24,288 nucleotides of DNA, taken from a virus. Under the pieces are notes generated by a model. It saw only the letters and a program-made list of their open reading frames with translations, did not search any database and was not told where the DNA came from. This document shows, piece after piece, positions 1,268-22,670 of this stretch; the first letter of the stretch is position 1, and each line of letters opens with the position of its first letter. Both the position numbers and the translations under genes were made by a program. The stretch covers positions 1-24,288 of IMG/VR virus record IMGVR_UViG_3300006751_000131; one strand, 5' to 3'.

Positions 1268-4200
1268 CTATGAAGTTACTGTTATAAAATTAGGTTGTAT
1301 AATTATATTTCCATTAGGAGAAGCAGTACCATATTTCTTAACTCTAAGAGTACCTGTTACAGTCACCACACTAGTTGTAGCAGTTGCCGCAAGATTTATA
1401 AATTCATATTCCCAATCACTTGATATTCTTATTAACTCTCCAGCGGCCATACTCGCTGTTGTTGTAGCGTTAGATATTACAATATCTGCAGCATTAACCG
1501 TATTAACAACTGTATTAGCTGGTATTCTTCCTTGGCCATCATCATCTTCTACCTTCATACCAGTCTTAATACCAATTATACTAGTTATTTCTATCGTAGT
1601 TTGTCCTATAGCTTCACTTCCTGTAAGAGAATATGTTTTTTCAGCGCCAGTTATATCAAGAACAGAAGATGGTTGACGATTTAAAGCTACCGATGTTATA
1701 CCTTCGTTTTTAGTCCAAGTAAATGAAAACGGATGATCTTGATTATAAGGTGTTGTTAGTTGTTGTTTGGTAGGCATACTAACAGCTGTAACAGTTGCAG
1801 CGGTGGTATTTGCAAGTGTACCTGGAGTAAGAGTAGCATTAACAGCTGGTGTTATAAGTAAGTTTAATTCGTTTATAGCATCAGCTACACTCGCTGTATC
1901 AATAGTTAAAGCCGTTCCTCCAGTACCAGCCGCCATATATGCAGAGTATGTAGCAGTTTCACTTGTTGAAGGCATATCAATTATTACTTGTTGAGAAGCG
2001 CCTAGTGTATACGTAATAGTTTTTACGTGATCGGTTCCCGGAACACCTTCACCAGTAGCATCAAAAGTTTCGCTTACAAAATCATAATAATGTGTAAGAG
2101 CGCCCTTAGCTTCATTTAGTTTTACAAAGTACAATTTCGCATTACCAGCGGCATTTGCGCCTGTAGTTACCGTTACTTGGCTACTTGGTAAAGCAGTTTC
2201 ACTTGAAAGAGATAGCGAAGTAACTTTATTTCCTATGCTAGTGCGCGTTACAAGCGCTTGAGAACTGTAATTTAAACGTATATCGTGTATAAAGCTACAG
2301 AAATTACCCTCACCCGAGATAGGATCTGGATCTAAACCACTAACTCCAACTGGTGGTGTATAGTAAATTTTAACTTTAGTGCTTTCTATCATTCCGGAAT
2401 TGTTCCCAGTGTAATAAGTATCTGTTACTGTAAAGTTATAGTAAGGTTCCCAAGGAGTATTTATCGCTCTAGTAAACCACAAAGGTTCTATACCTTTACT
2501 ATTACTTCTAGGTACTAAATGATAACCGGCGTCAGCCGTTATAATATATTCAGCTATTTTAGTAGAAACCCCTTGTTGAACAGTTCCACTCCATTTATCA
2601 GTTGACATTTGGGCATTAGGAACAAAAGGTATGTTATCTGTTCTTGTTATTCCCGTAACAGGACTTTGAGGAACTATTGCAACCTTATCAACGCTAATAC
2701 CGTTATCTTCTTGATATGTTACATGTAAGCAAGCTTCTCTATAAATCTTTCCACCACCTGATAATGTTGCCGCGTGATCTACATCATAATATTTAATGTA
2801 ATTGCTTGCGGGCATTGTAAAACTAGGATAATAAGCTCTCGCTCTTACAGTATTACCAGGATCATTAGCTATACCAATATTTGTAAATTCAACTTTACTA
2901 ACGCCACTTGAAACAGTATCACCAGAACTAAAAGTACTATCAGCATTCCAAGGATTGCCTTCTCCTGTATCAGCATCTGCGGTATATATGTATACAGTTG
3001 AGTTTCCACTACCAGTAGTAGTAGTTATTCCACCTGGAACACTAAAATTAGCAGCATCTAAATTTAAACCAGAATAAGTAAGAACACCTTTAGAGTTTGC
3101 TGTAACATTAGTTATAATAGTATCTAAATAACCAGCGGCTATTGTGGCTCCAACTACCCCAGTTCGAGTTAAATCTGGAGTGGTAGTCCAATCTGTAGAA
3201 TCAGCACTTGCATCCCAAGTTGCTCCACTTGTTGGTGTTGCTCTAGGATACACCTGTATTGCGTATGGCGTTTCTGCAGTTCCATCAGTAGTAGTGCTCG
3301 CTAACGTATCTAATCCTTGAACTGAAAACTCTCGTTCATCTAAATTAGATAATGTTGTAGCAACACCTTTTATTGTACTAAACCACTTGCCTTCTTTATT
3401 TTTAAACTCTAAATCTTCAACTTCTTGTAAATCTGTAATAATAGATTCTGTATACCAACCGGTTTTTGCATTTAAATTATAGTATTCTTTATCTGTATAA
3501 CTAACACCACCTTGACTTACAGTTGTAAATTGAGTAATTCTTGCTTGTGAACCTTCGTAATTTATTGTTCCAAAACTTTTTACAGCTCCAGGTTGATCAT
3601 TAAACATTAGTGTAACATCAGAATAATATTGGGTTCCATAAAAATTATTAGCTGTAGCGTTGGTATGATGTTGCCACATACTACCCTCATTCCATGTGTA
3701 GTATTCATTATTCATGCTGACGCCATGTTCTGGACCAAACGATTTAAAACTTACCCAACCTTTTGTTAATTCATTAAAACTAACTGTTGTTTTAACTGAT
3801 CTAAATTGTTGATACCAATTTTTAGTTCCAAATGTTAAATTATATTCGTTCTTTTTATCATCATATGTACCTACAATTTCTGATATGTCTTGAAGATTAT
3901 CATTAAAATAATCTTTCATACCAATATCAGATATACTTCTAATAGTTGCATTGCCTTCTAAACTTAACACTTGGCCTCTCATTTGATCACACCAATACAT
4001 ACCATGTGGTGTTACTGCTAGTGATTCTGGATTTGTAGAAATTCCATAATCACCCATTATTGGCGTAGCTTGACCTATAACTTTATTACTAGCTATTAGT
4101 TGTGGATTTCCATCAGCTTTATATATAGCGTCTTTATCTGTTGTTAAATTTAAAACTTTATCTTCACAAAAAGCTATTGTATTAGTATCTCTACCTACAA

Positions 4201-7200
4201 GCCTTTGTAGTGTTCCGTGTCTAGGACTTAAGTCTTTTGTTATTGGTTCTGCTTGTATAAATTGATTAAGATTATTAACTCCACTTGTTGAGTTAAATAT
4301 ACCAGACCATATTAATCCACTACTTCTATGTTCTTCAGCATAAGGTTCTGCTAAAACAGTAGATGCTTTAACACCATTTCTAAGTTGAGGAGCGTTATAG
4401 TCATCTCTAACTCTATCAGATTCTATACCGTTACCAAATTGCCAACAATTATGAAAACCTAATACTAGAGGTTGATGATGAGGTGCTCTCCAAGGTTGAT
4501 AAGCAAAAGGTGTTGCTGTGTTATAAGGCTGTTTACCAGTGACAACTTGAATGATTGTATCGTTATCACTTGCAGCGCTTCCAGAATAAGTAACTATTTT
4601 ACTACCATCATATCTATTTATTCTAATCCATCTATCAATAGCTAAATCAGATGTTAGCGCTGGTGATAATGTTAAATTTGTTAAATCTCCATTAGAAGGT
4701 TGATTAACCGCTGTAACTGTAAAGTTTATTACCTCACCAAATGTATCTGACGCAGCATCATCATCAACGTGTAAATTTCCAGATGAATCTGTAAGCTGTA
4801 ACGTAGAATATAAAGGTATTAATAATTCGTTATTTCTATGAGTAACATCTAATGGTATTGAGCCAGACGCTTCATAATATATGTCTAATCCAATATCTTC
4901 TTTTGGTTCTGTTTCCCATATAGCTGGATCTTCAGTTGACATGATAGAACCACCAGCCATTATATTAAGATCTTGTTGTAAAATATCTATTGGCGTAGTA
5001 GTTGATCCATCAGGTCTATTCGCACTCAATGGATCCCAAGTTGCAACATCTACAACTCCAAAATATGGTCCTGGCATGATTACCCCATCTAATCTTTCAA
5101 ACCTAATAACCATTTGTCTTTTTTGACAGTGTGACTTACTAGTATTACAAGTTTTGCAAGTAGTATAACGATGATAATTATATGCGGTTCTTTCACCACG
5201 TCTATTTCTTACTATATACACGGTACGAGTAGGATCAGCTCTAAATCTAAATAGAGTTCCAGCTGTTCTCATTGCACGGTGAAGTCGTAGAGCAGAGTGA
5301 GTTGATCCTAAATCACCATCAGCAGGGTCTAATCTATCCCATCCACCATTAAAACCAAGATGTAATTGACTGTGATCTGAAAAATGTTGAAAACAACCAT
5401 AGGTAGAATTCGAAGAACCTCCACCATAAGTAGTAGGCGACGAAGATTGCATCATATGTGTTGAACTAACACCAGGATATGAGTTGTGAAATCCACTTCC
5501 CGTTGTCCAACCATCACCTACTCTATGTCCTGCGCCGTCTATATACCAATTATTTCTTTGTCCAGATGTATCTGTTCTCCATTTCCAATACTGTTTTGTT
5601 CTTGTTCTAGCGTCACAATCTCCCATTCGACCACTACTAACACCGAAAGAACCAGTCATATCGTAGAAATCATAACTATTACTATTTCTCCATCCATCAT
5701 CTTCACCACCACCACGGTGATATGTATGATTTGATTGATTTGCAGATGGATGTAATCCCTCCGATTTATCAGGATGTGTTATAAGACCCACGTTGAAAGT
5801 ATCTATTATTGTAAAACTTGAACTATCCTCAAACTCTCTCATTACAGCTTGTTGTAATAGTAAATCTTTATATACTTTTACAAAAAATCTTCCATCAAAT
5901 TCTGGTCTAGGTTCTACGATGTGCTCTATAATTTGTACAGAATATGTTGGACTTGTAAAATTATCAGTTTGGTCAGCAGTATCACCAATAGCTTGATCTA
6001 TTTTTATAGATATGTTTCCACTAATAACTCTTATAGCTACAATACCAACAAACTCAGATCCCGCAATATCATTTCCTTCTGACGCGGTTATTCTTGCAAA
6101 AGCATTACCACGTGCTATTTTAGGATATGTGGTAGTTAAAAAATCACTACCAAAAGCAGCGTAAAAAGTGGCATCATCAACTAGTATATTAGTTGCTACA
6201 GCAAGACCCCCTCCCGTTGTATCAAGTGTAGCTGCGGAACCGTGTGGCTTTTTTTCTGTTTTAACAAAAAGTGGTGCGTCTTCTGATATAGCTATTACTT
6301 TATATCTACCAGTTTCATATACAGCTTTATTGGCATCATGTTCATTTTTAAGTATTAAGAATGTTTCTTCGTCGACTTTATTTCTTTCTGCAGAAGGAAA
6401 CGATAACCAAACGTTACCATCTTCAGCATCGTACCAACGATCCATTGCTAAATTATAATATTCGTTTGAAGTTTCTTTTACATAATACTTCATGTACTTA
6501 GCCCAAACTGGAGGTGGTGATGAGGGATTTAATCTAGCCCTTAAACTATTAGAATATGCAGACCATTTTTTATCTAGTGTTATACTACTACTTTCTTTTG
6601 GCACTTGCACGGGTGTTTCTCTTCCGTATTCATCAGCAAAAACAACCCCAATTTGATAAGTTCTTAATGTTTTACAAGATTTTTGAGGTTCCTCTATATC
6701 TGAGAAAGATCTTGAATGCCAAATATGACTCCAGTCTATATCTAACTTTAGATCAGCGTTTATATCATAATTTTGTTTATAATTACCATATACTAATCTA
6801 TTTGATGACATCTCCTGAGTTAATGCTGACTTAGGAACATTATCCCAAGGTCTTAATAATTGATTAGAAGGAATAACCGCATGAATCATTTCTGATGTTA
6901 ACACGTAATTACCTCTGTTATAATTACTAGACGCTCTATCTGGCCATTGCGGTGCGCCATCTTTTCTTTTTACTTCTTTAACCGTGTATATATTTGTACT
7001 ACCCTCTTCTTTGTATAATAGATCTACTTGAACAACATCTTTTGGTATTAAAGCAAATTCATGGAAATAGTTTTTAAGTTTTAAACTTCTCAATCTATTT
7101 GTCATACCTAAGTTATAGCCTTTCTTTGCCATGTAATCAAAATCACCTGGTAGAAAAGCAACTTCAGTCCAAGGAGCAAAACACGAATATTCACCATCTT

Positions 7201-8755
7201 GGTATTTCCATCTATATGAAAATCTAGGGAACTTAAACTCAAATAATGTTGGTTTGTCTTCTAATCTTACCATCCAATTTTGATCAGTATCTGGAACCGT
7301 ACTAGATATTGATAAAACACTTATATCATAAGGACCAACGCTTCCACCGTTGTTAGGCATTCCACTAGGTGCATCCTTTACAGTAACCCTAACAAGAGCA
7401 TTGTCTTCTGGAAAATTTTGTGGTGGTAAAGTTAAATCATTACAATAAATCAAAACATCTCCAACTCTAAAGTCGACAGGATCTGAAAAATAGACACCAG
7501 AAATAAAATGATCTACTTCAAATGGTTCGTCATCATTATCAGTCCATTTCGTTGTAGCAGTTGCACCTGAAGAGGTACCAGTTTGAGAATATACTAGATT
7601 TGCTGTTGGTTCTGGAGTTGTAGCGGTTGGATCAGGAGTTCTATCTATAGAGGTAGTAGACATTTCTAATTCTAAAGGAAACTTAGGGGATTTTTTTATT
7701 ACCGTTATATTTTCTAAAGTTGACCATTCTGGTCTAACATTTTGTCTATTTAAGGCGGTTTCGTAACCAAAAAGATCGGCGGTACTAATAACTACCCTAG
7801 TATGAAAATTAGCATTACCACCAGCGTCTGCTGCATTGATAACTCCAGAAGCAAGAGTGTTTCCAGTATTACTAGCGTGACTACCTAGTTGGGCATCTGT
7901 CCAACCAAGCGCTTGTGTTGTTCCACCTGTACCCAGTATACTTCTTTCAATATGTATTTTCTTAGGTTCACTAATGCCGTCTGTCCAAAATATCATTCCA
8001 TCTAAGTGATTTATAGAATGTATTTTTTGTAATGCTTCAAATTGAAGTACTCTTTCCCCAAATTCAGATTGAAAATATATACTTTCACTTGCGGCTATTG
8101 GTAAAACTGCACCACTAGAACCATTATCCCATAAATAATCATGATAAATTTTCCATCTACTATTACCAGTGTCATATACAACATCTGTTACTAATACATT
8201 GTCAGAGATATATATTGAATATGTAGATCCATTAGTTATAGTAGCGCTTCTAACGGTTATACTACCACCTGTATTATTTGTAAATGTACCACTAATATGC
8301 ATGCCAACTCTAACACCGGTTGTATTTGTTGAACTTCCACCATCTGGTATAGTAAAGTATTTATTTGAAGTATTAGCTAAGCTTTGTGTTGTCTTTACGC
8401 TATATATATCTACAAATACATATTTTGTAGTTTTTAATATTGTATTATATTCTATAATATAATCTTTTTTCACTAGAGGTTGATAGCCCTTCATACCACC
8501 ACCAGCTACAAAATAATATATTAAATCTTTTTCAGGAAGAGGCATAACACCAACACAAGTAGAGTAATCATCTGGAACAACACCATCAGTTACTTCACTA
8601 TTACCCAATAGCGTTTGTAAAGATCCTACATCAGAACCGTCAGATGTAGATATCTGTATATTATTGGCATCACGATATTGACCAGCGGGTACAACCCTCT
8701 CGTCCATATCTTTATTCATCTTTGCCCCAGAAAAATCTCTTTTAAATTCAGCCAT
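1268..8755 (-). CDS. Giant tail stabilization / hub protein (P22 gp10-like N-terminus)
   Basis: At 2495 residues this gene fills almost a third of the window. The N-terminus (DFSGAKMNKDMDERVVPAGQ, then YRDANNIQIST) is the opening I know from stabilization proteins of crAss-like and other podoviruses, related in role to P22 gp10, which plugs the ring beneath the portal and holds the fibres. Residues ~1005-1155 are a Gly/Ser/His/aromatic-rich low-complexity stretch. A Cys/His cluster follows: C1200, C1203, H1209 and C1210. A conserved-looking block lies around 1490-1650 (phrases such as GLIWSGIF and HGMYWCDQMRG), which may be propeller-like. From about 1830 to the end the protein is Thr/Ser/Ala-rich with beta-sandwich-like repeats. 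No membrane segment or signal is apparent. It starts eight bases after the preceding ring-protein stop. Most known stabilization proteins are much shorter, so this is probably a fusion of hub and additional tail or adhesin domains. Identity of the N-terminal part is fairly firm; roles of the rest are inferred. Confidence 0.75.
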   Translation of the reverse strand: MAEFKRDFSGAKMNKDMDERVVPAGQYRDANNIQISTSDGSDVGSLQTLLGNSEVTDGVVPDDYSTCVGVMPLPEKDLIYYFVAGGGMKGYQPLVKKDYIIEYNTILKTTKYVFVDIYSVKTTQSLANTSNKYFTIPDGGSSTNTTGVRVGMHISGTFTNNTGGSITVRSATITNGSTYSIYISDNVLVTDVVYDTGNSRWKIYHDYLWDNGSSGAVLPIAASESIYFQSEFGERVLQFEALQKIHSINHLDGMIFWTDGISEPKKIHIERSILGTGGTTQALGWTDAQLGSHASNTGNTLASGVINAADAGGNANFHTRVVISTADLFGYETALNRQNVRPEWSTLENITVIKKSPKFPLELEMSTTSIDRTPDPTATTPEPTANLVYSQTGTSSGATATTKWTDNDDEPFEVDHFISGVYFSDPVDFRVGDVLIYCNDLTLPPQNFPEDNALVRVTVKDAPSGMPNNGGSVGPYDISVLSISSTVPDTDQNWMVRLEDKPTLFEFKFPRFSYRWKYQDGEYSCFAPWTEVAFLPGDFDYMAKKGYNLGMTNRLRSLKLKNYFHEFALIPKDVVQVDLLYKEEGSTNIYTVKEVKRKDGAPQWPDRASSNYNRGNYVLTSEMIHAVIPSNQLLRPWDNVPKSALTQEMSSNRLVYGNYKQNYDINADLKLDIDWSHIWHSRSFSDIEEPQKSCKTLRTYQIGVVFADEYGRETPVQVPKESSSITLDKKWSAYSNSLRARLNPSSPPPVWAKYMKYYVKETSNEYYNLAMDRWYDAEDGNVWLSFPSAERNKVDEETFLILKNEHDANKAVYETGRYKVIAISEDAPLFVKTEKKPHGSAATLDTTGGGLAVATNILVDDATFYAAFGSDFLTTTYPKIARGNAFARITASEGNDIAGSEFVGIVAIRVISGNISIKIDQAIGDTADQTDNFTSPTYSVQIIEHIVEPRPEFDGRFFVKVYKDLLLQQAVMREFEDSSSFTIIDTFNVGLITHPDKSEGLHPSANQSNHTYHRGGGEDDGWRNSNSYDFYDMTGSFGVSSGRMGDCDARTRTKQYWKWRTDTSGQRNNWYIDGAGHRVGDGWTTGSGFHNSYPGVSSTHMMQSSSPTTYGGGSSNSTYGCFQHFSDHSQLHLGFNGGWDRLDPADGDLGSTHSALRLHRAMRTAGTLFRFRADPTRTVYIVRNRRGERTAYNYHRYTTCKTCNTSKSHCQKRQMVIRFERLDGVIMPGPYFGVVDVATWDPLSANRPDGSTTTPIDILQQDLNIMAGGSIMSTEDPAIWETEPKEDIGLDIYYEASGSIPLDVTHRNNELLIPLYSTLQLTDSSGNLHVDDDAASDTFGEVINFTVTAVNQPSNGDLTNLTLSPALTSDLAIDRWIRINRYDGSKIVTYSGSAASDNDTIIQVVTGKQPYNTATPFAYQPWRAPHHQPLVLGFHNCWQFGNGIESDRVRDDYNAPQLRNGVKASTVLAEPYAEEHRSSGLIWSGIFNSTSGVNNLNQFIQAEPITKDLSPRHGTLQRLVGRDTNTIAFCEDKVLNLTTDKDAIYKADGNPQLIASNKVIGQATPIMGDYGISTNPESLAVTPHGMYWCDQMRGQVLSLEGNATIRSISDIGMKDYFNDNLQDISEIVGTYDDKKNEYNLTFGTKNWYQQFRSVKTTVSFNELTKGWVSFKSFGPEHGVSMNNEYYTWNEGSMWQHHTNATANNFYGTQYYSDVTLMFNDQPGAVKSFGTINYEGSQARITQFTTVSQGGVSYTDKEYYNLNAKTGWYTESIITDLQEVEDLEFKNKEGKWFSTIKGVATTLSNLDEREFSVQGLDTLASTTTDGTAETPYAIQVYPRATPTSGATWDASADSTDWTTTPDLTRTGVVGATIAAGYLDTIITNVTANSKGVLTYSGLNLDAANFSVPGGITTTTGSGNSTVYIYTADADTGEGNPWNADSTFSSGDTVSSGVSKVEFTNIGIANDPGNTVRARAYYPSFTMPASNYIKYYDVDHAATLSGGGKIYREACLHVTYQEDNGISVDKVAIVPQSPVTGITRTDNIPFVPNAQMSTDKWSGTVQQGVSTKIAEYIITADAGYHLVPRSNSKGIEPLWFTRAINTPWEPYYNFTVTDTYYTGNNSGMIESTKVKIYYTPPVGVSGLDPDPISGEGNFCSFIHDIRLNYSSQALVTRTSIGNKVTSLSLSSETALPSSQVTVTTGANAAGNAKLYFVKLNEAKGALTHYYDFVSETFDATGEGVPGTDHVKTITYTLGASQQVIIDMPSTSETATYSAYMAAGTGGTALTIDTASVADAINELNLLITPAVNATLTPGTLANTTAATVTAVSMPTKQQLTTPYNQDHPFSFTWTKNEGITSVALNRQPSSVLDITGAEKTYSLTGSEAIGQTTIEITSIIGIKTGMKVEDDDGQGRIPANTVVNTVNAADIVISNATTTASMAAGELIRISSDWEYEFINLAATATTSVVTVTGTLRVKKYGTASPNGNIIIQPNFITVTS

Positions 8756-9729: not shown

Positions 9730-10557
9730 TTATTTTGTTTGTGCTTCGTTTTGTTGTTCTTCGTTCGATGCTATTTGAACTAAACCAGGTTTATTTATTG
9801 TAATACCAGCTAATTCCAATATCTTTATAACTAAATTAGTTTCTTCTGATCTATGCATGTTAAAATCTGTAGACGCCGCAGCGCTATATAAAGCTTTTTC
9901 ATTTACAACTACATATCCCCATTCAACCGCTCTAGGTACCACAGCTATAACTTCAATTTTTAATTTACCAGCTGATGTTATAGGAGCATTTGTTCCATCG
10001 CCTTCTGAATACAAACTATAGCTACCGTCTAAATTCTCTGTATAAAGAATTCTAGCAGTATCAGTAGAATGCCATCTACTATTGCTTTTAGCAGCAAAAT
10101 TTTCAGTAATTGCTTCTAAATCATTTTTATTAATAAGTTCTAATGGGATAGACGATCCATTTGTACCAGAATAGTACATTCGTCCAGTTCTGTATATTGA
10201 GCTGCTTAATGCTGGTAATTTATAACACTTGTTTGTGCTATCAACTGTTAAAGCAACATCTGTACCTTTGTATATAGATATTTTTTCTCTAAGAATATTT
10301 ACTGTGTCACCAAAATCTGGTGCCATTTCAACGTTGGCACCTGGTTGTTTTTGTTCTTCACCTCTTGACTTCAAAGCTGTCATTGTTGCTAAATCATAGA
10401 AATATTGTTCAAATATATCTAATTGCGCTTGGTTAGCGTGTAAGTTAAATTCTTGTGGCGTAATATAGCCTCTTTGCTCTTTGTTAGCTAATGCTAAAAC
10501 TCTTTGATAAACTGTATCTATACTTATAGTCGTTTGACCAGCTACTATTATTGCCAT
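9730..10557 (-). CDS. Head-tail connector / ring protein candidate
   Basis: This is a 275-residue protein. Its N-terminal helical segment (about 16-65) contains VYQRVLALANKEQRGYITP and then EFNLHANQAQLDIFEQYFYD, a pattern I recognise from connector or ring proteins of crAss-like and marine Bacteroidota phages. The rest is beta-rich (about 85-215) and ends in a helix and a Gln/Glu/Asn-rich tail (EEQQNEAQTK). There are no catalytic motifs and only one cysteine. It probably forms part of the neck between portal and short tail, acting with the next gene, which starts six bases after this stop. Neighbours on the other side are the 49-residue mini-gene and the capsid region. Structural role is likely; which ring it forms cannot be decided from sequence alone. 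Confidence 0.6.
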   Translation of the reverse strand: MAIIVAGQTTISIDTVYQRVLALANKEQRGYITPQEFNLHANQAQLDIFEQYFYDLATMTALKSRGEEQKQPGANVEMAPDFGDTVNILREKISIYKGTDVALTVDSTNKCYKLPALSSSIYRTGRMYYSGTNGSSIPLELINKNDLEAITENFAAKSNSRWHSTDTARILYTENLDGSYSLYSEGDGTNAPITSAGKLKIEVIAVVPRAVEWGYVVVNEKALYSAAASTDFNMHRSEETNLVIKILELAGITINKPGLVQIASNEEQQNEAQTK

Positions 10558-10562
10558 GTATT

Positions 10563-10712
10563 TTAATTTTTATATGGAAACCACCGGTTTAATATATCTC
10601 TTCTAGTTTCACATCCACAATCGTTTTCTTTAAATAACATTTTTATAAAAAGTTTTACACCAAGAAATTGAGTTATTTTGTGAACCGTATCTCCAAAACC
10701 TTTAGATTTCAT
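10563..10712 (-). CDS. 49-residue cysteine-containing small protein, function unknown
   Basis: A short frame with ATG at 10712 and TAA at 10563 encodes 49 residues starting MKSKGFGDTVHKITQFLGVK and ending RWFPYKN. It has a basic amphipathic N-terminal helix (about 8-28), then a DCGC element (C32, C34) followed by charged residues, and a conserved-looking aromatic end. I recall similar mini-proteins with a GFGDTV start and a DCGC centre in marine phage genomes, always without a function. The start follows seven A residues and there is no Shine-Dalgarno, as elsewhere here. It lies between the hairpin at 10725-10759 and the connector gene, with five bases to the latter's ATG, so it looks co-transcribed. 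The Cys-x-Cys pair could bind metal or form a disulfide, but this is only a possibility. The call rests on coding-like composition, placement and memory of homologues. Confidence 0.7.
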   Translation of the reverse strand: MKSKGFGDTVHKITQFLGVKLFIKMLFKENDCGCETRRDILNRWFPYKN

Positions 10713-10724
10713 TTTTTTTATTTA

Positions 10725-10759
10725 AGTATAGCAATCACCCCGAAGGGTGATCGCATACT
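10725..10759 (-). other. Long RNA hairpin with cUUCGg tetraloop
   Basis: In the coding sense the inner arm GCGATCACCC, loop TTCG and arm GGGTGATTGC form a 10-pair stem with one G-U pair. After a one-base bulge, AGTAT and ATACT extend it by five more pairs. The loop is the very stable UUCG tetraloop closed by C-G. The following sequence is A-rich (TTAAATAAAAAAAATG), with no U-tract, so it is not a canonical terminator. It lies ten bases after the stop of the preceding gene and just before the mini-gene start, and may protect or process the messenger or gate translation. Confidence 0.75.
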
Positions 10760-10768
10760 ATTGTTTAC

Positions 10769-11614
10769 TTATCTTAACTGTTTTTCAACAGATTGTAAGA
10801 CTTCCATTCCTTCATCAGTTTTAAACCAAGAGGCTAAAGCTGAATAAGGATGATCTTCAAACGGAACGTTTAATAATTTTCTACCATTTGATCTCCAAGA
10901 AAAAGTTCTTTGGTCGTCAGATAGCATAATTATATTTTGTTCAACTGATTTTATACCTAAATTCCTAAGATGTATGTTATCATCTTGCATTAAGTCTAAG
11001 AGTAATTTAGGGTTTTTCTTTGCAAACACCATAATATCTCTATTAAGTTCCTTAGAAGTCATCTTAGATACTTTAGAACCATTCTGAACACGCATAATAG
11101 CTTCAACTAAATCAATATCCATTTCTCTAGCTGCTATTAAAGCATCTACTTCTAAGTTGATATTTTCTAATTCGTTTTTAGCTGCAAGTTGTGGTTGCAC
11201 TTCTCTGAATATCTTGTTTTTCCACGGGTGATACACAGATAGCATCTTTTGTAAAGTTACTTTATTTTTAGGTACAAATAAACCGCCATTCCTAAAAACT
11301 ATTCTACCTGGTCTTATATCTCCTTTCATTTCATCTACAAAAAGAGTAGGTTGATTTTCAGTATATTGCATTTCTCTTTCGTAACCCAGCTTTTCGTCGA
11401 AATAATATATTCCTCTAGTTTTTATTCCATAGGATAATGGAGCTTTACCACTACTTAAAACGTATCTTCTATCTTTTATCTCCCAATTGTTTATAACCCT
11501 ATTAGTAGGTTCTGATCTTTTCGGTTCTGGAGTTTCCATAACCGGTGTTTCAACTTTTGGTTGTTCTATAACCTGTGGAGTTGGTTCCACTTCTGTTTTT
11601 TGCTTTTTTGCCAT
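10769..11614 (-). CDS. Conserved virion-associated protein of unknown function
   Basis: This is a 281-residue protein. The first ~40 residues are a disordered Pro/Glu/Lys/Thr-rich tail (for example PQVIEQPKVETPVMETPEPK). Then comes a beta-rich region (about 42-125, including YVLSSGKAPLSYGIKTRGIYYFDEK), and from about 145 a helical region, with a Lys-rich segment at ~180-210 and an end such as ALASWFKTDEGMEVLQSVEKQLR. There is no enzyme motif, signal or membrane segment. It stands directly after the capsid gene and its terminator and before the connector genes, a place where decoration, head-completion or core proteins are usual. The disordered N-terminal arm would suit capsid attachment. Transcription must come by read-through of the terminator at 11638-11673 or from a promoter inside the capsid gene, because only about 20 bases lie between the T-tract and the ATG. 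Function is not recognised. Confidence 0.55.
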   Translation of the reverse strand: MAKKQKTEVEPTPQVIEQPKVETPVMETPEPKRSEPTNRVINNWEIKDRRYVLSSGKAPLSYGIKTRGIYYFDEKLGYEREMQYTENQPTLFVDEMKGDIRPGRIVFRNGGLFVPKNKVTLQKMLSVYHPWKNKIFREVQPQLAAKNELENINLEVDALIAAREMDIDLVEAIMRVQNGSKVSKMTSKELNRDIMVFAKKNPKLLLDLMQDDNIHLRNLGIKSVEQNIIMLSDDQRTFSWRSNGRKLLNVPFEDHPYSALASWFKTDEGMEVLQSVEKQLR

Positions 11615-11637
11615 GATATAATATAATTTAATAAGTT

Positions 11638-11696: not shown

Positions 11697-13181
11697 CTAG
11701 TTAGCCCCTTTTAGTAAAAAGAAGTTATTAGCACCTTGAACAACTAAACATCTTTCAGATAAGAAATGCATTTCCATCGCATCTAAATCAGAAGTAGTAG
11801 CACCAACCGAACCAGTAGTCCAAGTTTTGTACTTTCTGCTTTCTAAATTAGAAGCTCTGTAACGCACATGTAAGAAAGGTCTTTTCAAGTTCTTACCTAA
11901 GTTTTGGTCATATACAGAAGATACACCAGCAGGAATTATAACACCATGAATTGCGTTAGCAACATCTTTAGCGTTTATTAATCCTCTTGTTGCAGCATCA
12001 TTTAGATATTTGAAATCAGATTTGTAGAAATCATAAGATCCACGTCTGAAACCAGAGAAACCTAAATTAAGTGCCATGTCTTCTTCGTTGTTAAATACTC
12101 CATAAGAAGTACCATTAGCACCATAAGAATTTTGAGCGGCTAAACAGTCATCCATTTGTAGAGAAGCACCTCTATCCATAAACATCATGTTTTCTTCAAT
12201 AGCACCGTTAGCATCAAATTCAGCAAGGATATCATCTAAGTCGCTCATTGCAACACTTCCAGAACCGTCAAAAACGTTAGATATATTACCTCTAGATTCT
12301 AAAGCTTCCCATAATCCTTCAGTACCTTTTATAGTACCAGTAGCACCAGTCACAGTACTTACAGTATTAGCACCTGCGCCTGCGGCAGTTACTGATTCTA
12401 ACATAGCCATCTCTAAGTAATCAGAGAATCTAGCTTTAGTATCACCAGAAGCTTTTAAGTACCATAAATAACCTGATTGACCTTCTTCACCAGAAACTTC
12501 AACCCAACCAATCGCAGATGCATCAGAACCTGATACTTCATACTTATCTTTTAAGATAATTGGTTTGTTAGTTCTAGATAAATGTTGTGGTTTGTTAGCA
12601 CCAGCTCTACCTATAGATCCTTTAACATACTCAGATCCATAAACTAGTACAGAAATATCAGTACCAGAAGCAATACCATTATCACCAGTAGCGTGACCAT
12701 CGTATCTTTCACAGTCAATAGTTGCAGTACCAGAAGTAGCTACAGTATTAACAAAAGCTTTAACACTAGCGTTTGCGTCAGATGCTATAATCATATCACC
12801 TGGACGAATACCGTGATCAAGACCAGCGTTACCAACGTCTCTACCATCCGCATCAGTTGTGGTTCCATCTACCATAGTAATTCGCAAGAGACCACCTACA
12901 TTGGAGGCTGTGCATAATTTATATGATAAATGTAATCTACCTTGTTCAGACCAAACTACTTGGTCAGAAGCCATAGACTCTTCTGCTCCAACTTGAGATA
13001 AAAACCCACTAATTGTTCTATTACCGAACACTTCAGCTTCTTTTTCCATCAAATCAGGCAGGTATTGTTGCGCCCAATCATTGCTCCCGCCAGTAAAGTC
13101 GAGATACGCAGTTGAGAGCGTTTGCTTCATCGGGGCAGGAGTTAATAGTCCTGTCGCGACAGCTTTTTGAGTTACACCCAT
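11697..13181 (-). CDS. Major capsid protein
   Basis: The 494-residue product forms the icosahedral shell. The N-terminus reads MGVTQKAVATGLLTPAPMKQ, then a helical region about 35-75 (WAQQYLPDLMEKEAEVFGNR). The centre is Gly/Ala/Ser/Asp-rich and beta-like. The C-terminal part includes IHGVIIPAGVSSVYD, RPFLHVRYRASNLESRKYK and LSERCLVVQGANNFFLLKG. The length and overall pattern suit HK97-fold capsid proteins of ~490 residues such as those of crAss-like phages, though the fold itself has no short diagnostic motif. Context is decisive: it follows terminase, portal and scaffold and is followed by a strong terminator, as expected for the most highly expressed gene. Composition is less AT-biased and more orderly than neighbours. 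No separate N-terminal prohead protease domain is visible here, so the separate acidic gene upstream is taken as scaffold. The leader is A/T-only. Confidence 0.88.
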   Translation of the reverse strand: MGVTQKAVATGLLTPAPMKQTLSTAYLDFTGGSNDWAQQYLPDLMEKEAEVFGNRTISGFLSQVGAEESMASDQVVWSEQGRLHLSYKLCTASNVGGLLRITMVDGTTTDADGRDVGNAGLDHGIRPGDMIIASDANASVKAFVNTVATSGTATIDCERYDGHATGDNGIASGTDISVLVYGSEYVKGSIGRAGANKPQHLSRTNKPIILKDKYEVSGSDASAIGWVEVSGEEGQSGYLWYLKASGDTKARFSDYLEMAMLESVTAAGAGANTVSTVTGATGTIKGTEGLWEALESRGNISNVFDGSGSVAMSDLDDILAEFDANGAIEENMMFMDRGASLQMDDCLAAQNSYGANGTSYGVFNNEEDMALNLGFSGFRRGSYDFYKSDFKYLNDAATRGLINAKDVANAIHGVIIPAGVSSVYDQNLGKNLKRPFLHVRYRASNLESRKYKTWTTGSVGATTSDLDAMEMHFLSERCLVVQGANNFFLLKGAN

Positions 13182-20653: not shown

Positions 20654-21730
20654 TTAGTGTGTTGTATGTGAAGAATCACCAGCTACAGTAAGATTGTAAT
20701 CACTTCCACTTAAAGCAGCACCAGTATTAGCTGTACCATTATTTTCAAACTGATGATATAGTTGTAGATTACTACTTGACTCGTAATCACCACTATCACT
20801 TGTTAGATTAATTGGTGTTCCACTGTTATATATAGCTGTTATCTCAGCTGCTGTTAGTGCTTCGTTCCAAATAGCAAATTCATCATATTGTGTTTGTGTA
20901 CCATCACCACACTTTATATAACTATTACCGTTATTTGTGCTTCCTATAATTACTTCTCTAGTGGTGTTTGTTGGCATAGACATTGTTGAGGCGTTAGTAT
21001 CATAACTTAAATCAACAGTTCCGCAGTCATTAGCATTCCAATAAAGCTTAAGATCAGAGGAAGCGCTAGAAGTACCTTTTACAATTGTTAGCATAGTCCA
21101 ATCATCAGTGTTGTAACCTCTATTAGCAGCAGACCAATAATCTGTCCCTAAACCAGCCGCAGCATAGCTTTCTGCATATATTCCACTATTATCATGAAAT
21201 AACCATTGTGCATCCATATCTCTATTAGATCCACTTGCATCACTTCTCATTAAAAATTTTATTCTATTTTGATTTTCTGCATAATATAAAGCCATTGAAC
21301 TATCCCACCAAGATGAGGCGCCGGGTTCACTAATAGTCCAAAAGAATATATTTGTATTTAAAGAACTACTCCAACCAGCTTTAACCCATATTGAAACAGT
21401 AAATGCACTACTCTCTGTAAAATGAATAGCACTACCAGCTGATATAGCTCCTGATTTTATAGTTTCATCAGAACCAGTTGATAAAGATTTTGAAACAGCA
21501 TAAGCATTTGCCCAAGCAGCCGCAGCATCATGATCATATCCATACCATTCTGACATTGCAAACGGTGATTCACCATCAGGAGCACTGTCACTGTTTTCGT
21601 TAAATGATGTGTTCTCCGCTAAACTTCTTAAAGATATATTACTATAACTCTCGCCAGCGCTGTAGTTGTCTTCATCTATTTCATTTTGAATACCAAGAAG
21701 ACTTACTGCACCATTACTTGGAACAGCCAT
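20654..21730 (-). CDS. Tail fibre / adhesin with LamG (concanavalin-like) domain
   Basis: The 358-residue protein has a small N-terminal virion-attachment type module (about 1-70, opening MAVPSNGAVSLLGIQNEIDE and closing MSEWYGYDHD), a form seen in many marine phage tail proteins. A LamG / concanavalin-like jelly roll follows at about 75-350. Typical phrases are FTVSIWVKAGW near 105-120, WTMLTIVKG near 212, and the hallmark YDEFAIWNEALTAAEITAIY near 285-305. LamG folds bind glycans, so the likely role is recognition of host surface polysaccharide or of capsule. No catalytic residues are evident. The ATG lies inside the 3' end of the S74 gene (17-base overlap), tying it to that fibre. There is no signal peptide, as expected for a virion protein. 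Domain call is good; the ligand is unknown. Confidence 0.8.
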   Translation of the reverse strand: MAVPSNGAVSLLGIQNEIDEDNYSAGESYSNISLRSLAENTSFNENSDSAPDGESPFAMSEWYGYDHDAAAAWANAYAVSKSLSTGSDETIKSGAISAGSAIHFTESSAFTVSIWVKAGWSSSLNTNIFFWTISEPGASSWWDSSMALYYAENQNRIKFLMRSDASGSNRDMDAQWLFHDNSGIYAESYAAAGLGTDYWSAANRGYNTDDWTMLTIVKGTSSASSDLKLYWNANDCGTVDLSYDTNASTMSMPTNTTREVIIGSTNNGNSYIKCGDGTQTQYDEFAIWNEALTAAEITAIYNSGTPINLTSDSGDYESSSNLQLYHQFENNGTANTGAALSGSDYNLTVAGDSSHTTH

Positions 21731-22670
21731 TGCACATTGTTTTTAATTCATCAATTTGTTTTTGTTGATCTTTAATAGCCTCGATTAAATAACCTACAAC
21801 GTTACCATAAGCAACGCCCTTATAATTACCATCATCTATAACTAACTCTGGAGCAACCTTTTCCATTTCTTGAGCTATAACACCAGAACTAGCTTTACCC
21901 GTATCTACACGATCAAAACTAACTCCTCTCATTTCTAACACTTTTTTACCATCTAGTGTTTTAATATTTTCTTTTAATTTTTTATCAGAATAAGCTATTA
22001 CATCAGCGGAACCTGTTATAGTATCACCCGCATATAATTTTTTAGCAATACTAGCACCACCCTCACATCTTAAGGCCCCAGTATCACCTGTAGCGTCTGT
22101 AGAGTCTGTGGTATCTGTTATATCTAAAACCCCTGTTATAGCACCTCCAGCTAAAACGTTAGTGTTAGTATCTTCCCAAGGTACATTGACCGTAGCTACA
22201 CCATCTTCATCTGTTTGAAGTTGATAAGATCTACCTGTTACTGCTGATATATTTGCAGGAAGTACCGAGGCGGCTGTACCAGAAACTTTTACAAGTCCTT
22301 TATCGTCACCAGAAGCATCTGGTACTTTACCATTAATATAAGTAGATAATCTTGTCATTGTAGCTTTTCTATTAGTGCCATTAGCACCATCATCTACAAG
22401 AAAAAGGTCAGCATCTACTAAAGCAGCACCTATATCAGTTTGGCCATCAATATCTACAGTTGCTGTTACTGCGGCCCAAACAGCTTTTGTGTTCGTATCA
22501 TCCCATTTCAAATAATAACCATCAGTATGTGCAGATTGTCCAATTTTTGTAACATGACCACTTCCATCAAAAGTGAAAGCAGCTGTTCCACTAGCTTCTT
22601 GTAACGAACCACCGTCATCTATAATTATATCACCAGTAACTTTTATATCATTTAAAAAATCTATAGCCAT
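21714..22670 (-). CDS. Tail fibre with C-terminal S74 intramolecular chaperone
   Basis: This is a 318-residue protein. The N-terminal half is fibre-like (GSLQEASGTAAFTFDGSGHV near 21-40) and holds a unit at 75-112 (DGQTDIGAALVDADLFLVDD) that resembles the repeats of the upstream fibre. The centre is Thr/Asp/Gly-rich. The C-terminus (~215-318) is the peptidase S74 / endosialidase-type chaperone: SADVIAYSDKKLKENIKTL, then SSGVIAQEMEKVAPELV, and a helical end KDQQKQIDELK. The chaperone trimerises the fibre and then cuts itself off. The likely self-cleavage Ser is S228 with K233 as partner, by analogy with the known Ser/Lys pair spaced five residues apart. The end MCNGCSK contains two cysteines. 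The upstream gap (22671-22716) is A/T-only. Domain identity is firm; cleavage is inferred from the retained residues. Confidence 0.88.
   Translation of the reverse strand: MAIDFLNDIKVTGDIIIDDGGSLQEASGTAAFTFDGSGHVTKIGQSAHTDGYYLKWDDTNTKAVWAAVTATVDIDGQTDIGAALVDADLFLVDDGANGTNRKATMTRLSTYINGKVPDASGDDKGLVKVSGTAASVLPANISAVTGRSYQLQTDEDGVATVNVPWEDTNTNVLAGGAITGVLDITDTTDSTDATGDTGALRCEGGASIAKKLYAGDTITGSADVIAYSDKKLKENIKTLDGKKVLEMRGVSFDRVDTGKASSGVIAQEMEKVAPELVIDDGNYKGVAYGNVVGYLIEAIKDQQKQIDELKTMCNGCSK
22335..22448 (-). repeat. Partial, diverged fibre-repeat unit in the S74 fibre
   Basis: Residues 75-112 of the S74 fibre (DGQTDIGAALVDADLFLVDD and onwards to RKATMTRLSTYI) align with the second part of the 81-residue repeat (SGQTNMTGDLADADELLVSD, then GTLKRADFSVV). 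The shared pattern is GQT, ADADLxLVxDxG and a following Lys/Arg. This suggests that neighbouring fibre genes share shaft modules by duplication or recombination. Confidence 0.55.

Follow-up and report, generated by a model that had tools for sequence, protein, structure and literature searches.

A covarying hairpin between the capsid-side and connector genes of marine phages related to flavobacterial podoviruses

The hairpin that lies behind a 281-aa gene (g281) in a 24,288-nt stretch of viral DNA (hereafter the window, meaning the whole stretch analysed) is almost certainly a selected RNA element at a fixed position after that gene, as judged from comparison with homologous sequences. Its shape has been kept while its letters changed, which implies that the phage needs it, and the phages that bear it are a marine clade related to flavobacterial podoviruses. 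The genes of the window lie on the minus strand, a point on which an earlier note on this DNA was silent, in the order terminase, portal, a 385-aa gene, major capsid protein, g281, hairpin, a mini-gene of 49 aa, and then the genes for two virion structural proteins (275 and 319 aa). These last two match PHROG 14543 and PHROG 13977, respectively, and the PHROG matches of the flanking genes bear out the placement of the hairpin in the earlier note, between the gene that follows the capsid gene and the connector genes. The relevant features are, in minus-strand order:

11697 to 13181, minus strand: major capsid protein gene (PHROG 13704, virion structural protein), homologous to the protein annotated as major capsid protein in Cellulophaga phage Calle_1
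11646 to 11676, minus strand: ordinary intrinsic terminator (hairpin plus U-tract) in the gap between the capsid gene and g281, found by the terminator scan; a contrast case
10769 to 11614, minus strand: g281, the gene whose 3' end precedes the hairpin (stop codon at 10771-10769)
10725 to 10759, minus strand: intercistronic hairpin of 15 bp with one bulged U (10730), a cUUCGg loop (10744-10741), and no U-tract
10713 to 10724, minus strand: A-rich, unpaired 12-nt leader from the hairpin to the start codon, with the sequence TTAAATAAAAAAA, followed by the ATG at 10712
10563 to 10712, minus strand: mini-gene of 49 aa containing DCGC; accessory
9730 to 10557, minus strand: g275, virion structural protein in a connector-like position (PHROG 14543)

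By capsid and g281, the nearest isolates are the flavobacterial podoviruses Maribacter phage Panino, the Flavobacterium elemo phages, and Cellulophaga phi38:1 and Calle (Pervagoviridae), phi46:3 being a more distant relative. We found no PDB relative of g281, by sequence or by fold. The matches of its predicted fold are confined to uncharacterised proteins, from crAss-like viruses, Cellulophaga phi14:2, Azobacteroides phage ProJPt-Bp1, and other phages, so that g281 may be a general, unnamed head gene of these phages. A canonical terminator is present in the gap between the capsid gene and g281 in nearly all loci. At the start codon of g281 stands an AT motif, TATATTATAT(T/C)-ATG (window 11615-11634, minus strand), which also occurs just upstream of 14364, before the 385-aa gene of the window, and in many relatives at the start of the gene that precedes the capsid gene. 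The motif was found one to two times per record in 18 records, with 0 matches for the reversed control pattern, and may serve as a late promoter of the phage, giving an almost leaderless transcript, or as a signal for translation. Elsewhere in the window, the gene after the two virion structural ones encodes a single protein of 2495 aa (1268-8755), and a 318-aa protein (21714-22670) has an SDKKLKENI stretch that presumably resembles the self-cleaving chaperone domain of tail spikes.

Structure, covariation and position of the hairpin

From 10759 to 10725 the minus strand reads AGTATGCGATCACCC-TTCG-GGGTGATTGC-(T)-ATACT, in agreement with the 15-pair hairpin with a cUUCGg loop and without a U-tract that had been noted before. 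Its minimum free energy is -24.9 kcal/mol, compared with -13.2 ± 2.8 in dinucleotide shuffles (z = -4.2; none of 200 shuffles was as good). The plus strand of the same site scores similarly (z = -4.1) but would form a CGAA loop. The G+C-rich stem-loop typical of an intrinsic terminator is thus present, whereas no U-tract directly follows the stem on either strand, for which reason we rejected an intrinsic terminator in both orientations; likewise, the hairpin at 10725-10759 is not listed in the terminator scan of the window. A search of Rfam (release 15) gave no match in the window above the gathering score and nothing at the hairpin up to E = 5, and we found no open paper describing this hairpin.

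The comparative evidence comes from two sets of loci. Among 80 loci collected as capsid relatives, nearly all those with intact synteny have a gap of 50-66 nt after g281 that contains a hairpin. In the 46 distinct sequences of this set, 99.8% of the cells of the inner 10-bp stem are paired. Both partners have changed in 58 cells, where shuffles give 20 ± 4 (0 of 500 shuffles reached the observed value), and shifting the partner strand by one column reduces pairing to 36-48%. The second set, found via g281, contains the hairpin in 47 of 63 new loci; in its 43 distinct rows the inner stem is again 99.8% paired, with 45 double changes versus 14 ± 3.5 after shuffling, in an alignment fitted to the model and therefore favouring the structure. 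Compensatory changes among relatives, whose absence the earlier note had named as a refutation, are numerous in both sets and speak for a function. G.U pairs make up 78 of 460 stem cells (17%), and the antisense strand would pair only 82.8% of them compared with 99.8% for the sense strand, which argues that selection acts on the coding-strand RNA. These G.U cells, together with a UNCG loop seen on the coding strand only, led us to reject a DNA-level palindrome such as an operator, packaging, or origin site. A c(UNCG)g loop, where N is U, A, or G, closes the stem in ~35 of the 46 distinct sequences; a DNA scan with N left open found 98 UACG, 27 UUCG, 2 UGCG, and 0 UCCG loops among the matches listed. 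Other loops met in relatives are UAUAUA, UUUUA, and CAAUAAAA. The outer stem and the internal loop vary, and little is conserved outside the inner stem: relatives have 12-21 pairs, usually 15, most of them arranged as a 10-bp inner stem and a ~5-bp outer stem with an asymmetric internal loop between the two, and two loci (L080 and L112) have a continuous or very short stem.

The hairpin usually begins 6 nt after the g281 stop codon and, with few exceptions among the relatives, leaves 10-18 nt to the next ATG, in a leader that is 67% A. A scan with a DNA-only stem-loop pattern found at least 127 viral contig stretches, with one match each, and among the matches listed g281 lies directly upstream in 125 of 127, the other two having only 75 and 21 nt of upstream sequence, too short to tell. 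Since g281 is its nearly invariable upstream neighbour among these matches, we assign the hairpin to g281 and not to the mini-gene. On the other side, the g275 gene is found downstream in all 113 of the listed hairpin loci with enough downstream sequence, directly after the hairpin where the mini-gene is absent. In each of 17 records, the longest of 66 kb, a covariance model found a single convincing hairpin, with a second, marginal match (E = 0.06) in one record, and this single copy rules out a dispersed repeat or general processing signal. No other U-less hairpin recurs in the 871 kb of related loci; this one has 60 occurrences at the slot after g281. The hairpin is missing after g281 in L090, L094, L126, L191, and L198; in L090 and L094, g281 is separated from the mini-gene or g275 by an additional 1-1.5 kb, and in these two and L126 the extra region is closed by a hairpin-plus-U-tract terminator. 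An exact-pattern scan of 84,980 genomes gave 24 matches, most of them from high-GC actinobacteria and not one from a record with Bacteroidota in its title; these are probably chance occurrences in coding DNA, and a host origin of the hairpin was rejected.

Terminators in the same slot and possible roles of the hairpin

Among the isolates, elemoE/F, phi38:1, Calle_1, and MW202828 have a U-tract terminator in the slot after g281, followed by a TATMTTTG box; the slot of Panino contains a terminator together with additional genes, and a promoter box precedes its g275 homologue. None of the isolates searched is itself a member of the hairpin clade. A minority of the marine clade has a U-tract terminator and a conserved AT-rich block instead of the hairpin, and on a quick capsid tree, which has moderate supports and long branches among the isolates, loci of the terminator type fall into about four separate places. 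The conserved block, GCTAACCTTTC...TTATTATGTAACTATATTATAGTAAAAT, stands after the U-tract behind g281 in L078, L079, L111, L130, L166, L169, L177, and L228 and is probably a phage-specific promoter that replaces the host TAHHTTTG box, the flavobacterial promoter consensus (PMC6847099, PMC9723704). No TAHHTTTG promoter occurs in any hairpin gap, this consensus being that of the host sigma-A, with which a phage-specific promoter could be missed, and only one of 64 loci has such a box within the last 250 nt of g281. Some hairpin stems, such as that of L093 (GUAGCCACUC-UUCG-GGGUGGUUAC), resemble by eye the terminator stems (AUAGCCACUC...GGGUGGCUAU), which suggests that the two forms may interconvert.

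The role that we favour, at about even chances, is that of messenger punctuation, in which the hairpin would protect or process transcript ends within the late structural-gene mRNA; the earlier proposal that it protects or gates the messenger is plausible. The hairpin would mark the 3' boundary of g281 and lead into the connector genes. RNA polymerase would read through it, since there is no U-tract, the next start codon is only ~12 nt away, and no promoter is recognisable. The stable stem could then block exonucleases that degrade the g281 mRNA from its 3' side, and/or it could shield the 5' end of the connector mRNA or be the place where that mRNA is processed, so that the amount of g281 would be set apart from that of the connector proteins and the messages would have different lifetimes. 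In sister lineages and isolates, the terminator found in this slot would do the same job, with a host-type promoter behind it in most isolates. Translation initiation in flavobacteria relies on A-rich leaders free of structure (PMC6847099), and a further effect of the stem may be to leave the leader behind it unpaired. A protein-bound operator or a factor-dependent terminator would be expected to leave a similar sequence record.

Such an operator, to which a phage protein in excess (for example g281, g275, or the capsid protein) would bind and so repress translation of the next gene in the manner of T4 gp43, seems to us rather unlikely. Its distance from the next ATG places the stem within reach of the initiating ribosome in nearly all relatives, it is present in a single copy per genome beside structural genes, and there is a precedent in phage T4, where gp43 binds a hairpin upstream of its own start codon (PMC3014915). 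However, the loops (from UAUAUA and UUUUA to CAAUAAAA), the outer stem, and the internal loop all vary, which suits a reading based on stability better than one based on sequence, and the gene downstream is not always the same (mini-gene or g275).

A site for an RNase III-like endonuclease, which would cut the stem with its asymmetric internal loop and separate the g281 and connector mRNAs as in T7, overlaps with the punctuation reading and, taken by itself, has in our view a small probability. The inner stem, internal loop, and outer stem of most relatives would fit such a substrate, as would the single intercistronic copy. Classical RNase III substrates are irregular helices of ~20 bp with an internal loop. 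The usual total of ~15 bp, in a range of 12-21 pairs among relatives, seems short beside them, and L080 and L112 have a continuous or very short stem. A more general possibility, equally tentative and on balance improbable, is that the hairpin founds a so far uncatalogued kind of RNA regulator, spread through the lineage, that a phage factor would read (as an operator or as a factor-dependent terminator or antiterminator). Such a regulator would fix the ratio of capsid-side to connector proteins and be swappable in evolution with a terminator-promoter cassette.

Very doubtful is an unusual U-less terminator that would act via pausing, a phage factor, or a phage RNA polymerase. True terminators do occupy this slot in sister lineages and isolates, and the likeness between some hairpin and terminator stems points the same way, but the nine bases after the stem contain only 0-3 T in 52 of 61 loci. 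Moreover, the next gene begins after only ~12 nt, with no promoter to be recognised in between, so termination at the hairpin would leave the connector genes without transcription.

The 49-residue mini-gene

The open reading frame at 10712-10563 on the minus strand encodes the 49-residue DCGC protein reported in the earlier note, and homologues, for which that note had suggested a search, are found at 57 loci. The family follows the pattern SKG(F/L)GDT...GIK...DCGC..R...LN..FPY, and across 41 sequences the positions S, G, GD, C.C, N, P, and Y do not vary. The window protein matches PHROG 32048 (E = 2e-4), as do 36 of the 41 members at E ≤ 0.01, and both the profile match and the SKG.GD, CGC, R, LN, P, and Y residues place it in that family. 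The profile has 119 positions and is matched over its first part, whereas the window protein has 49 aa. In L003 (5001-5363) and L011 (5001-5378) the mini-protein corresponds to the N-terminal part of a protein of ~120-125 aa with a second Cys motif, SCGSC, a longer form that may explain the length of the profile. No relative was detected in Pfam, NCBIfam, or the PDB, and a structure model of moderate confidence consists of three short helices. Between the window and L002, dN is 0.16 and dS 1.85, with synonymous sites near saturation. This points to strong purifying selection on the 49 codons, the lack of which the earlier note had named as a refutation, and likewise speaks for a function. By its sequence record, the mini-gene is a genuine phage gene family under purifying selection, and an optional one.

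The proposal that hairpin and mini-gene are a unit, the hairpin serving the mini-gene and both forming one module, did not survive the comparison: the two are adjacent in the window, in L001 and L002, and in 41 of the 113 listed hairpin loci, but the mini-gene is absent from the other 72 and from 11 of the 17 hairpin-bearing records (30-66 kb), occurs without such a hairpin in many unrelated phages, and stands behind terminators in L078, L111, L130, and L133, a distribution that refutes this reading. We regard the mini-gene as an accessory gene in its own right that was inserted into this gap and that moves between contexts.

Comparison with known phage elements

To our knowledge, structured cis-elements of phage late operons have rarely been catalogued outside T4, T7, and lambda. 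The present hairpin, which has no Rfam entry, is supported by covariation in ~90 distinct sequences and by at least 127 stretches found by pattern, and it illustrates that structure in the space between two phage genes does not have to mean a terminator. The cultured relatives with a terminator in the slot (Cellulophaga phi38:1, Calle_1, and Flavobacterium elemo) offer a natural comparison between what may be two ways to dose capsid-side and connector proteins.

With an intrinsic (Rho-independent) terminator the hairpin shares a G+C-rich stem-loop after a stop codon, in a slot where relatives have real terminators, but it differs in having no U-tract and a start codon after ~12 nt. By analogy, it would work most like the processing sites of T7 or the CUUCGG hairpins of T4. 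RNase III sites of the T7 type lie between late genes. The hairpin can be likened to them by form and place, as an intercistronic stem with an internal loop in a structural-gene transcript and without a terminator U-tract, although its helix is shorter and there is only one site per genome. The T4 CUUCGG hairpins are likewise intercistronic (Tuerk et al. 1988, cited in PMC7165471), and in T4 the CTTCGG of the sense strand is flanked by self-complementary arms more than half the time and that of the antisense strand never (PMC7165471). The present hairpin has in common with them a very stable sense-strand stem with a cUUCGg (UNCG) loop, located between genes and selected on the sense strand. 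The phages that bear it are not T4-like by gene content. In contrast with the T4 sites, it is a single element whose orthologues occupy one fixed place and have been kept, through compensatory change, in a whole clade of phages with other hosts.
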